DNA of 51,032 bases, from NCBI GenBank assembly GCA_017469685.1, contig JAFUFW010000079.1, forward strand, positions 1 to 51,032. The letters are read 5' to 3'. Of this stretch, positions 36,743 through 41,881 are shown in pieces; the first letter of the stretch is position 1; each line of letters opens with the position of its first letter. The position numbers and the translations under genes are program-made. This DNA comes from Bacteroidaceae bacterium (GTDB lineage Bacteria; Bacteroidota; Bacteroidia; Bacteroidales; Bacteroidaceae). The notes beneath the pieces are model-generated. The model did not search any database and was not told where the DNA came from. It saw only the letters and a list, made by a program, of their open reading frames with translations.

Positions 36743-38227
36743 TCATAGATTGCTCAAAGCTTCTCTGCCCTTATTCGTCAAATAGTATGACTGCATTGGA
36801 TGGTTGGGAGTCTCGGGGTATAGCATGGCTATATAGCCAGCTTCTATGTTGGGGGTAATATAAGTAGAAACAAATCCTTTCCTGTCCTTACGCTGTAGCG
36901 CTTCCATGAGAACTTTCAAATTGGCACCATTTTCTCCGATTGCAGTTAATAGTGTTTTCAACCGTTTAAACTTAGCATCCTCTCGCTTTGAGGTTGTGGG
37001 GGTTGTGGGGGTTGAGGGGCTTTTAACTTGTGGGGTTGTGGGGGTTGTGGGGGTTGTATGGTTGTATGGTTGTGTGGTGTTCCTTTTGAATGTTACCCAA
37101 ACGAAAGATGCGTTCTGGTTGTATTCTGGTTCGGGAAGGTTTGCCTCTCGACAGGCATCCATGATACGACCGACACCGCTGCCCCAGTTCTCCAAGAAAG
37201 TTGTTTTGAAGAGCACGTCAGCAATGGTTGGATTCTGTGGGAAGGAATGATGCGACTGCTTGATGGTCTCTGTGGTCAACTCCTCTGGGAGATGACCAGA
37301 ATTCTCAATCTCAATGCGGTCATCATAGATGGCGATGCCCACAGAACTGCTTGTATTGTGGAAAAACCGATGGCAAAGCGCATTCGTCAAGGCTTCTCGT
37401 AGGGCTTCAGCAGGAACTTCCAGTTTCTCCTCTCTCGTAAAGCCGACAATCTTGCCACTGATGGAAAGATGCTTGAAGAAGAAAGCCATACCAGCATCCA
37501 AGAGCGTAAAGAAGTTGCCATAAGCACGTTGGTTGTCGAAGAACTCATTCTTATTGGTGCCACGGAATCGTGCCATGCGAAGCAGGAACTGAGGGAATTG
37601 GCTGGTGTCACGCAAGAACAGAGCTGCAGCTGCGTTTTTCAGTTTGCCGTCGGAAGTCGTAAGCTTCAATTTCTCAACAAGGTTTTCAGTTGTTTCCATC
37701 AAAGAAGATGCTGGCATACGTCCGCGCTCAACACCTAAACGAACGCCGCCACGAATACGTTGTTCCTCCAAGTCTGCAATGGTAATGTCTTCACATACTT
37801 GGTCTTCCCATTTATGGCGGTTGCCTTTACTCCGCATCAGTCTATCCCAATATACGTCACGGGGCATGACAATAGTAGTGCTTTCCAAGCGAATATATGG
37901 TCTGCTGTCAAAGGTATATGGTTCTTCCCAGTAACCTGCAGCATCCACATAGATGGCTATGACTTGGTAACCGGGGCGACCTGGCACATCGATGTATTCT
38001 ATTGGTAGGTCTATCAGCGGCTCTAGCTTTGCAATCTCTCTGGCAATTTCCTGTCGAGTGTTATCGTTTACTTCTTGTCCGAGAATCTTCAAGGACGTTG
38101 GGGCAATGCCGATGAACAGCCAGCCGCCAGCGGTATTAAGGAAAGCACAAACTGAACGCATACCATCCTTCAACTCGCCCGTTGACTTCTTCAGTTCCAA
38201 CGTGCGAGTCTCGTCATCTTGAATCAA
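36743..38227 (-). pseudogene. AlbA_2/Schlafen-type ATP-binding protein, reading frame interrupted near its N-terminus
   Basis: The main frame encodes an AlbA_2 domain (about 1-125; TRTLELKKSTGELKDGM, AFLNTAGGWLFIGI), a GHKL-like ATPase part (about 260-370; LREALTNALCHRFF, IEIENSGHLPEELT, GSGVGRIMDACREANL), a Thr/Pro-rich linker of TTP repeats, and a C-terminal winged-helix-like part. The natural start appears to be the ATG at 38258-38260, 19 nt past a -7 box, giving MTNMTIEDI, then an in-frame TAG at 38231-38233, then the rest. Only a TTG at 38225-38227 restarts the frame. So it is either a nonsense-mutated gene or made weakly from TTG. Such proteins are regulators or defence-associated; its role here is unknown. 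Confidence 0.75.
36991..37080. repeat. G-rich tandem repeat (GGGGGTTGT-type) coding the TTP linker
   Basis: The plus strand has repeated GGTTGTGGG units in two clusters separated by GGCTTTTAACTTG, ending in GTATGGTTGTATGGTTGTG. On the minus strand these encode Thr-Thr-Pro repeats. Several runs of four or five G could form a G-quadruplex on the non-coding strand. Confidence 0.75.
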
Positions 38228-38278
38228 TGCCTATATGTCCTCTATCGTCATATTGGTCATTCGCTTAAAAAGTCGGCG

Positions 38279-38286
38279 CAAAGATA
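38279..38286 (-). promoter_or_regulatory. -7 promoter element of the AlbA_2/Schlafen-type gene
   Basis: Minus-strand TATCTTTG, 18 nt before the ATG at 38260, supporting that ATG as the original start. Confidence 0.6.
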
Positions 38287-39958: not shown

Positions 39959-39979
39959 AAGTATATTAATGTATAACTA

Positions 39980-41881
39980 ATGAGCCATCGAAGAATCCGC
40001 AAGATAAAAAACAGAAAGCACCAAATTCTGTCGTCCCAAAAAGGCAACAGAAGAAAACATCGTTTCAGAAGCCACAGACAGAAAAGGATACAGAACAAAC
40101 GTCAACCGATAAAGCGAGGAAGAGTTGTCCGCATCAAAGACACGAAACTCGGTAATGAGTTTTTTTCTCAAATGCTATTAGAGTACTCTTCTTTATTCCC
40201 TGAAAGAAGACTGAACCTCAATGAGGAAATCAGAAAATTCCCAAGGGAACAACTGGTGAAGATTGTCCTTGTGTTAGGACGCAACTATGGTACATACAAA
40301 ATTTCCGACCTTAAAGATAAACCATTTTTCTCATACTCTACAGATTCGTATCGGGACATAATGGAGAGAATCGCCACATACATTGTTCAGAGCGGCTATT
40401 CTCCAGACAAAGTGTCGTATGCGTGTGAACGGACCCTATTGGAATTTTTGAAGTTGATATTCAGTGTGGCACCAGAAGATAGTCATACAACGTATGAGGA
40501 TTGGGACGCAGAAGTTAAAATTTTCCACATACTTTTGGCTCTCAATGAACAAAAAGTAACTCCATACAAGGGCAGTAAATCAGAGCCGAACAATCTTGCG
40601 CAGATGATGTATGTAAGCATGTATGCCACTAATGAATTTTCCAACTTTAATTGGAAATTGGTTCTTGCAGAGCAAATGTTTTATGCTCGTACTTTTTTTG
40701 AGTTCATAACGTCGAGAAGTGTTTACTCTACCTTCTACCAGCGTTTTCTATCCCAGTTTGGAATATGTAATTGGATTGAATACTTTCGAACGGTTGCACT
40801 ATTGTCTGCCCAAGTGGGGCAAAATGGAGTTGGTGTCTTTAGTTTGGAGAATAATGATCCTGAAAAATTGGTGAACAAAGAAGTTCTTTCACAAATTGCT
40901 GTTGACGAATCAGAAACTATATCCGTATCAGATGATGACAATGATGAAAATCGGGATTTCGTAGTATTTAGGTCACGTCCAATCATACACATGCAAGATG
41001 GCAACTATATGATGTATAACGCACATCTTGTTATTGAAAGATTGTACAATAGTATCTATTTCGACCTGTTGCCATATCAAAAGGGACTCACGTATAACGG
41101 GAAAACGTATTCTCAATTCTATAAGGAGGTTTTTGTTGAGAAGTATTTACTCGACAACACATTACTTTCATGTATTGATGAGAATCGTTTGAATGTATGC
41201 TTCCCTAATGTATCAGATATTCAATGCGCTGACTTTGTCGACAAACAAGAAGAAAAAGATCAGCCAGATTTCTATATTCGAGAAGGATGCGCATCATTCA
41301 TCTTCGAGTGCAAGGCTATCAAATTGAATGGCGACCTCAAAGGGCAAGCTGATGTTGATAATATTATGGAGGAGCTGAAAAACAAATTGGTAGAAAAACG
41401 ATGGAACTTAAAAAATGGGAATAAACAATACTTGACATCGCCAAAAGATGAAGGTGTTGGCCAGTTGGTTGCACATATCGACAGGCTTGAAAATGGAACG
41501 TTTAAGTGGGATTCTCAAATTCCAAGTAAAATACTGTATTACCCAATACTTGTGTTAGAAAGTCGTGAGATAATACAACCATCCCTCTCTGCCATTATTA
41601 ACGAATGGTATTATGCCTTATTAAGATCCAAGCCGTTGATAAGTTTGAATAAGTGCCAACCACTTATTGTAATGACAATTAAGACGCTTTTCCTTTATAG
41701 CGATCTTTTCAAGAAGAATGGTTTTAGATATTATCTCGACAAGTTTATTTCTGACTGTAAGAGAATGAAGAATGGGCAGCTCTCGATGAGCGCATTTGAG
41801 AACTTTGATGGTTGGATGCAATGCAACTATAAAAGTAACAAGCAATCATATTATGAGGAGACGATAAAAATGCTTCAGTAA
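39980..41881 (+). CDS. Large unrecognised protein with PD-(D/E)XK nuclease signature
   Basis: The 633-residue soluble protein matches no family I can name. The middle is helical (LEFLKLIFSVAPEDSHTTYEDW, EVKIFHILLALNEQK). A late segment has a restriction-nuclease-like core: Asp430 in DQPDFYI and Glu443-x-Lys445 in FIFECKAIK, with GQADVDNIMEELKNKL after it. This is the PD-(D/E)XK arrangement of many defence and repair nucleases. The first ~55 residues are extremely Arg/Lys-rich, while another frame of the same DNA reads like an ordinary Lys/Gln/Pro linker, so the N-terminus may be wrong; an ATG at 40172 is an alternative. It is very AT-rich, 21 nt after the MORN-like gene, and converges on the relaxase gene. 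DNA or RNA cleavage in defence is inferred. Confidence 0.65.
   Translation: MSHRRIRKIKNRKHQILSSQKGNRRKHRFRSHRQKRIQNKRQPIKRGRVVRIKDTKLGNEFFSQMLLEYSSLFPERRLNLNEEIRKFPREQLVKIVLVLGRNYGTYKISDLKDKPFFSYSTDSYRDIMERIATYIVQSGYSPDKVSYACERTLLEFLKLIFSVAPEDSHTTYEDWDAEVKIFHILLALNEQKVTPYKGSKSEPNNLAQMMYVSMYATNEFSNFNWKLVLAEQMFYARTFFEFITSRSVYSTFYQRFLSQFGICNWIEYFRTVALLSAQVGQNGVGVFSLENNDPEKLVNKEVLSQIAVDESETISVSDDDNDENRDFVVFRSRPIIHMQDGNYMMYNAHLVIERLYNSIYFDLLPYQKGLTYNGKTYSQFYKEVFVEKYLLDNTLLSCIDENRLNVCFPNVSDIQCADFVDKQEEKDQPDFYIREGCASFIFECKAIKLNGDLKGQADVDNIMEELKNKLVEKRWNLKNGNKQYLTSPKDEGVGQLVAHIDRLENGTFKWDSQIPSKILYYPILVLESREIIQPSLSAIINEWYYALLRSKPLISLNKCQPLIVMTIKTLFLYSDLFKKNGFRYYLDKFISDCKRMKNGQLSMSAFENFDGWMQCNYKSNKQSYYEETIKMLQ

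Follow-up and report, generated by a model that had tools for sequence, protein, structure and literature searches.

A probable pseudoknotted leader RNA with attenuator-like features ahead of exported-protein genes in Bacteroidota

The locus and its leader RNA

The window, by which we mean the whole stretch of DNA analysed here (51,032 nucleotides; contig JAFUFW010000079.1 of assembly GCA_017469685.1, from a Bacteroidaceae bacterium), carries at 36743-41881 a structured RNA that is followed in the same direction by genes for a 432-residue exported protein and a 633-residue PD-(D/E)XK-like protein, with an AlbA/Schlafen-type gene running divergently on its other side. An initial annotation of this locus proposed that the RNA, the exported protein and the nuclease form one module, possibly acting against phages or competitors. 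Our comparison with related genomes points instead to a cis-acting role: the RNA, at about 38410-38606, is probably the 5′ leader of the mRNA of the 432- and 633-residue genes and a member of an attenuator-like family, here called type I. The elements of the leader and the two genes behind it are as follows.

38402-38409, + strand: promoter box TATCTTTG, from the sequence
38409-38439, + strand: 5′ hairpin of the leader, stems GCAA/TTGC and ATGGC/GCCAT, from the sequence
38448-38606, + strand: core of the type I leader (covariance model R1, 144.1 bits)
38450-38453, + strand: 5′ strand of P0, partner 38492-38495, crossing P1 and P2 (99.4% paired, one-sided changes only)
38457-38463, + strand: 5′ strand of P1, partner 38569-38575 (two-sided changes in 7 of 7 pairs, 99.5% paired)
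38467-38473, + strand: 5′ strand of P2, partner 38558-38564 (two-sided changes in 7 of 7 pairs, 100% paired)
38512-38537, + strand: P4 apical hairpin (helix 5, 93.5% paired; swap test)
38539-38543, + strand: 5′ strand of P5, partner 38577-38581, a pseudoknot (97.7% paired)
38587-38594, + strand: tail GTCTGCGC, alternative partner of 38527-38534, terminator-like with the U-run
38595-38600, + strand: U-run behind the tail
38660-39958, + strand: gene headed by the leader, for the 432-residue exported protein with weak MORN_2 similarity
39980-41881, + strand: second gene behind the leader, for the 633-residue PD-(D/E)XK-like protein

The RNA of the window folds with a minimum free energy of -73.7 kcal/mol, compared with -49.5 (sd 4.2) for shuffled sequences (z -5.8), and none of 200 shuffles did as well. 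Together with the promoter box and the terminator-like end at the U-run, this agrees with the earlier description of a structured RNA running from promoter to terminator. We take TAnnTTTG to be the Bacteroidota-type -7 promoter consensus and read TATCTTTG as such a box. The partner strand of P2 is the loop of a further helix, P3 (38553-38556/38565-38568), which creates a pseudoknot; P3 is 96.2% paired with two-sided changes in 2 of its 4 pairs, and P5 has two-sided change in 3 of 5 pairs, resting on 5 cells. The ATG of the 432-residue protein (38660) lies 53 nt past the end of the core, and the next gene follows in the same direction after a gap of 21 nt, as had been annotated.

Type I copies: conservation, competing helices and downstream genes

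To define the distribution of this RNA we searched 200 related genomes. A DNA search, with three candidates scored per genome, gave matches in 51; the window's own genome has two further matching places, one of them the promoter part only. Model R1 (E ≤ 0.001) matched 77 of the 200, with up to 8 copies per genome and 3 in the own genome. Of these 77, 74 (own genome included) are of the same genus, which contributes 121 genomes to the sample, and the remaining 3 belong to other families of the same order. Across a class-wide draw R1 matched the own genome only (1 of 295). An exact-pattern search yielded 14 loci labelled Bacteroidales, Prevotellaceae, Bacteroidaceae or Prevotella sp., all of which match R1 and half of which (7/14) come from records whose titles name a ruminant. 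A phage-borne origin for type I was considered and rejected: the pattern has 4 matches in viral contigs and R1 matches none of them.

Conservation of the fold was assessed in two alignments. In A3, comprising 24 copies aligned by MAFFT without a structure model, 94.0% of 1051 cells in 44 proposed pairs are paired and 26 of the 44 pairs have two-sided changes, a count biased in favour of the pairs as they were picked on the same sequences; the covariation score was 0.422 against 0.199 for shuffled alignments, with 0 of 500 as good and slid versions at or below 0.104. In A5, 83 aligned R1 hits (two places are duplicated, leaving 81 places and 79 distinct rows) gave 97.8% of 3456 cells paired, two-sided changes in 33 of 44 pairs and a score of 0.575 against 0.203 (0 of 500 shuffles). 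The A5 counts for P1, P2, P4 and the apical helix lean to R1, because these helices are part of the model; P0, P3, P5 and the tail helix are absent from it. At the level of sequence comparison, these data demonstrate a conserved type I fold, strongly for P1, P2 and P4, moderately for P3 and P5 and weakly for P0. Conserved structure with compensatory changes, as expected of a structured leader, is found both in type I and in the second family, type II, described below.

The 3′ part of the P4 apical hairpin (38527-38534) appears to be a switching strand, being complementary to its own 5′ strand and equally to the tail near the 3′ end. Its helix with the tail comprises 8 pairs, is paired in 95.8% of 626 cells and has two-sided changes in 6 of the 8. 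At the triad 118-128-205, where one position of the shared strand faces both partners, the 79 rows read GCG (57), AUA (14), AUG (4), GUA (2) or otherwise (2); both partners tend to track the shared strand. When strands were swapped among 78 copies, with the apical 5′ strand as 1, its 3′ strand as 2 and the tail as 3, the own pairing was better in 2000 of 2000 swaps for 1:2, 2:3 and 3:downstream (strand 3 is also complementary to sequence within 60 nt further downstream), as opposed to a negative control in which 1407 of 2000 swaps were as good. At least 4 T occupy the first 6 nt behind the tail in 82 of 83 type I rows. Shared ancestry inflates the swap statistics; as evidence for a switch, more weight falls on the triad and the U-run. 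By comparison, then, type I has the two mutually exclusive helices of an attenuator, one of them terminator-like with a U-run.

The position of the copies is consistent with a cis-regulatory leader, having a promoter upstream and a same-strand open reading frame (ORF) at near-constant distance. In 72 of 81 copies the 80 nt that precede the core contain a TAnnTTTG box, usually at a distance of 35-49 nt, whereas 4.8% of random 80-mers contain one. A nearby same-strand ORF follows 80 of the 81 (L062 is the exception), with a median of 65.5 nt from core to start codon (quartiles 59-71). A simple rule assigns a signal peptide to 66 of these 80 first ORFs, against 33 of 95 other ORFs in the same loci with 150 residues or more (Fisher p 1.5e-10), and clustering on the first 60 residues gave 57 groups, 48 of which hold a signal-peptide member. 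Among the genes missed by the rule are those of L015 (FRG-like) and L112 (DUF2971) and, by eye, genes for membrane proteins (L003, L037, L081 and L083); a GTG start in L102 or an upstream ATG in L074 would give a signal peptide (by eye, uncounted). Pfam searches with 20 headed proteins returned LRR_5 (2), Big_2 (2), TonB_C, DUF4468, DUF5036, DUF5683, DUF2971 and weaker matches, and no match for 8 of them. The headed genes are unrelated; the constant component is the leader and not the protein. Two further observations concern these genes. In L003 and L037 a type I leader precedes two genes for small membrane proteins that form an operon with a third gene, whose product begins with MANHLIIGLGGTGGSIIRAL and looks tubulin-like by eye. 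In L016, L027, L030, L082 and L092 the start context is GAGCAAATG, to which the conserved leader sequence TTGCTC is complementary.

Type II leaders and the proteins of the locus

Five loci with a window-like promoter and 5′ hairpin but a different core revealed the type II family; one type II locus has a 5′ part that shares 83% identity with 38385-38450 of the window. Of 130 genomes, 39 matched a type II DNA query; the match in at least one, G051, is confined to the shared 5′ part. An alignment of 27 copies (A7) is paired in 96.2% of 806 cells, with two-sided changes in 15 of 30 pairs and a covariation score of 0.461 against 0.181; its swap test is clear for tail:downstream only (0 of 2000 as good). 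The corresponding model, R2, matched 125 of the 200 relatives (23 of 80 genera; up to 12 copies per genome) and, class-wide, 44 of 291 genomes (27 of 154 genera). Sixteen class-wide places, hand-chosen from the draw and aligned by fitting to R2, gave 96.8% paired, 23 of 30 pairs two-sided and a score of 0.784 against 0.194, and in 9 of these 16 rows the tail is followed by 5 or more consecutive T. A signal peptide was scored in 22 of 30 type II first ORFs. Both types share a plan of P1, a GAA/AAA loop and P2, with flanks AGGY...RCCU around the P2′ strand, and an apical hairpin that competes with a 3′ tail. Since R2 does not match the window core, it is from this plan that we infer a common origin.

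Type II also occurs on mobile DNA: its DNA query matches 7 of 72,556 plasmid records and 2 of 50,697 phage records. R2 matched all four plasmids inspected (from Bacteroides finegoldii, B. uniformis, where the plasmid is pBUN1, Parabacteroides distasonis and Prevotella sp. oral taxon 299); the four leaders are followed by a gene for a lipoprotein-like product, one for a class A beta-lactamase, a DUF4433 gene and an ORF that is unannotated and looks cytosolic. On pBUN1 (L214) the leader, at 3001-3220, stands between mobV and the class A beta-lactamase gene blaMUN-1, and on the Parabacteroides plasmid it lies behind a toprim gene and a hypothetical gene. The unannotated human-faecal phage records MT836071.1 and MT837628.1 have a DNA match to the type II leader. 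By inspection, IS1595-like transposase genes adjoin type II leaders in L196, L199 and L203, and in one genome (G136) the distance to the contig start is 200-310 nt for four of the copies listed, a hint of a repeated mobile unit. FRG-like genes (by inspection) stand behind both a type II leader (L020/L153) and a type I leader (L015); L020/L153 also has a divergent AlbA_2 gene on the other side of the leader.

We then asked whether the components of the locus travel together. The 432-residue protein has the signal peptide (simple rule) and the Tyr/Gly/Ser-rich stretch ascribed to it; its match to MORN_2, at 18.9 bits, is below the gathering threshold of 29.6. Its homologues are near full-length in G062 (51%) and G057 (52%) and in two pieces in G199, besides many further weak repeat matches. 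R2 places a type II leader before the G062 gene (1.2e-20) and the G057 gene (1.6e-23), and neither model matches before the G199 gene. The leader thus seems to go with the exported gene, and its family can vary. None of the three genomes (G057 and G062 are 83-89% complete) is among the 10 of 200 relatives, own genome included, that match the 633-residue protein, which also has matches on 8 Hymenobacter plasmids; tblastn found no 633-residue homologue in the covered flanks of the three MORN loci, the G057 contig ending 86 nt past the gene. Conversely, R1 at up to E = 1 found nothing in 99,099 bases around 9 of 10 other 633-residue places (the tenth, a weak match in G190, was left out), and R2 gave one match there (1.4e-6), about 3 kb from the member at L138. 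The neighbours of the 633-residue gene vary, including SEFIR-like, kinase-like, WG-repeat lipoprotein, DarT-like and AbiE-type genes (most by inspection). RNA, MORN and 633-residue homologues were thus not found together in the loci examined, and because of this the proposed three-part module fails. What survives of it is the tie between the RNA and the exported gene, as its leader; the nuclease-like gene seems to fall outside. Two known RNA-based systems were also set aside: a type III toxin-antitoxin (ToxIN-like) pair, as no ToxN/AbiQ-type Pfam or PADLOC match was found in the two downstream proteins, and a retron-type RNA, as no reverse transcriptase was found among seven window proteins scanned.

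For the 633-residue protein, a nuclease activity with an independent role in defence is plausible. The Asp430 and Glu443-x-Lys445 of the annotation are present and, with P429, make up a PD...ExK motif that does not vary among the 9 sequences aligned. In keeping with the annotation, 5 of 11 homologue loci inspected have defence-type neighbours that are AbiE-, SEFIR- or DarT-like (most by inspection). NCBIfam GapS1 (NF047931), an anti-phage family as we take it from its name, matches residues 317-470, a segment that includes P429, D430, E443 and K445, with an E-value of 5.8e-5; at 22.1 bits against a cut-off of 320, and seen in 1 of 9 members of the family, this does not make the protein a GapS1. 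Pfam gave no match for the protein and none convincing for its relatives (best 0.0063, one member), PADLOC on the family and a sequence search of the PDB gave none, and a homologue search in viral contigs returned nothing useful. A single-sequence structure model, made without an alignment, had a pLDDT of 34.5. At 39980-40130 the gene encodes a long, very basic N-terminal tail, also seen in same-genus relatives L132 and L134 and the fragment L133, and absent from the same-genus relative L135 (G071) and the other aligned homologues. AbiEi/AbiEii-type genes lie near the members at L138, L139 and L130 (annotated in L130, the others by inspection), and L139 has a 1183-residue version of the protein.

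The remaining genes around the leader are these.

36743-38227, - strand: SLFN_AlbA_2 / HATPase_c_4 / Fic-like_C protein (Pfam), divergent from the leader RNA, a possible regulator
41895-46597, - strand: mobilisation/replication genes with Mob_Pre, DUF6371 and DUF3987, and a helix-turn-helix-like ORF by inspection

The Pfam matches of the divergent gene (SLFN_AlbA_2 8.5e-16, HATPase_c_4 3.5e-24, Fic-like_C 3e-15) are all above gathering. Beyond the mobilisation genes lie two tyrosine-recombinase-like ORFs (by inspection); a search for direct repeats that might mark the ends of the element was without useful result, the contig stopping at 51032. All four of the units described as AT-rich are present, with a GC content of 0.375-0.413 across the four 1-kb bins of 38001-42000; the AlbA_2 unit is less AT-rich than the other three, because its bins have 0.431 and 0.486. 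The AlbA_2 gene as a constant partner of the leader is not supported: it had no match in the covered flanks of other type I copies, although less than 500 nt upstream was covered for 44 of 81. AlbA_2-type genes or remnants adjoin type II copies in L020/L153, L002 and L021/L150. A part for the AlbA_2 protein in the leader system is putative. Within this gene, at 36989-37072, a short G-rich repeat encodes a Pro/Thr-rich linker.

Candidate mechanisms and their meaning

These observations provide the basis for a model in which the type I leader, promoter-proximal and pseudoknotted, would belong to a transcript that runs on into both genes. Pairing of the apical 3′ strand with the tail (2:3) would form the terminator and pairing within the apical hairpin (1:2) the antiterminator, and a signal acting on the pseudoknotted core would decide whether RNA polymerase enters the gene. 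Promoter and leader occur before unrelated genes, both on mobile elements and elsewhere in genomes, and the 633-residue gene would be a co-transcribed passenger.

Several observations weigh against this model. A loop of 47-55 nt, which is long by the standards of intrinsic terminators, separates the two strands of the tail helix. In A7 a U-run behind the tail is present in 0 of 27 type II rows, and of 2000 swaps 90 were as good for 1:2, 136 for 2:3 and 37 for the negative control; the control is no weaker, and the A7 switch pairings are not separated from it. Kinship among the copies inflates the shuffle and swap statistics generally. On the side of the genes, 14 of 80 first ORFs score without a signal peptide under a rule so lenient that 33 of 95 control ORFs pass, several type II leaders outside the genus head cytosolic-looking genes, and the diversity of headed genes points to no ligand.

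The same leader might act by another mechanism, its core recruiting a protein such as a NusG-like antitermination factor, or controlling translation or mRNA stability, with no terminator decision. The type II rows of A7, with no U-run and with tail:downstream as their clearest pairing, fit such a scheme, as do the GTTAGTGC/GTACTAAC stem that many copies show some 20 nt ahead of the ATG (by eye; RNAalifold on an alignment of the 3′ part of the leader gave no structure) and the start regions complementary to TTGCTC. The type I U-run (82/83) and the covariation of the apical triad are a better match to a terminator decision, and we regard a mechanism of this other kind as possible but rather unlikely. 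A separate trans-acting small RNA, ending at the U-run and standing before the genes by chance, would account for the RNA having its own promoter and a terminator-like end; the tight spacing to start codons of unrelated genes, seen in two RNA families, makes this improbable. More remote still is a single defence or competition system of RNA, exported protein and nuclease. The parts are adjacent and in one direction in the window, and elsewhere an exported-protein gene precedes a broken 633-type gene (G022) or follows an intact one (G051); against this, 0 of 9 homologue loci have type I RNA, the exported partners are unrelated, and the MORN homologues have no 633-residue homologue in their covered flanks. 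Finally, an element acting as DNA, such as a folded recombination site or an insertion-sequence end, would suit the multiple copies, the IS1595-like neighbours of type II and the copies near contig starts in G136, and is hardly credible for sequences with G-U pairs, pseudoknots and a fixed orientation and spacing to promoter and ORF.

The attenuator-like leader that we favour has parallels among known systems. Transcription attenuators and transcriptional riboswitches, for example the trp leader and the SAM riboswitches, use mutually exclusive leader helices. The type I leader resembles them in its promoter-proximal position, its exclusive 1:2 and 2:3 helices and its tail with a U-run, and its pseudoknotted core could be a sensing domain; it differs in that the headed genes share export or mobile-cargo status and no known ligand, leader peptide or metabolic pathway, and in its long terminator loop (47-55 nt). 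Antitermination by NusG paralogues (UpxY of Bacteroides, LoaP of Bacillus) requires a 5′ leader for operon expression and likewise places it ahead of envelope-related operons. To our knowledge those leaders are not large pseudoknotted RNAs, whereas the type I leader is one.

The leader family is apparently undescribed. In Rfam 15 neither the window nor either leader type matches a family at gathering; at E ≤ 5 the only match in the window was U4 on the opposite strand (38356-38484; 17.7 bits against 46), and for 42 further loci (20 + 6 + 16) at E ≤ 1 none of the matches listed overlaps the leader. A literature search, which did not cover many subscription papers and supplementary tables, found no published description. 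For human microbiomes, Fremin and Bhatt (2021; PMC8040213) computed candidate structured RNAs, of which 508 lie directly before genes and some come from Bacteroidetes; the part of that paper compared here makes no mention of a leader for exported-protein genes, and overlap with its supplementary tables is possible.

A broader idea, which we offer tentatively and consider doubtful, is that types I and II may be one ancient Bacteroidia leader superfamily, a general, portable switch for exported and horizontally acquired genes that senses the state of the cell envelope or of the element and not a metabolite. If true, this would be an RNA switch class with a regulon defined by export of the product and mobile-cargo status, and we know of no earlier class so defined. 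A recurrent, pseudoknotted leader family that reaches named Bacteroides, Parabacteroides and oral Prevotella would give a dominant phylum of the gut a new level of gene regulation, linking the expression of surface proteins with that of cargo on mobile elements, and it raises the testable question of what decides whether leader-headed genes are read.

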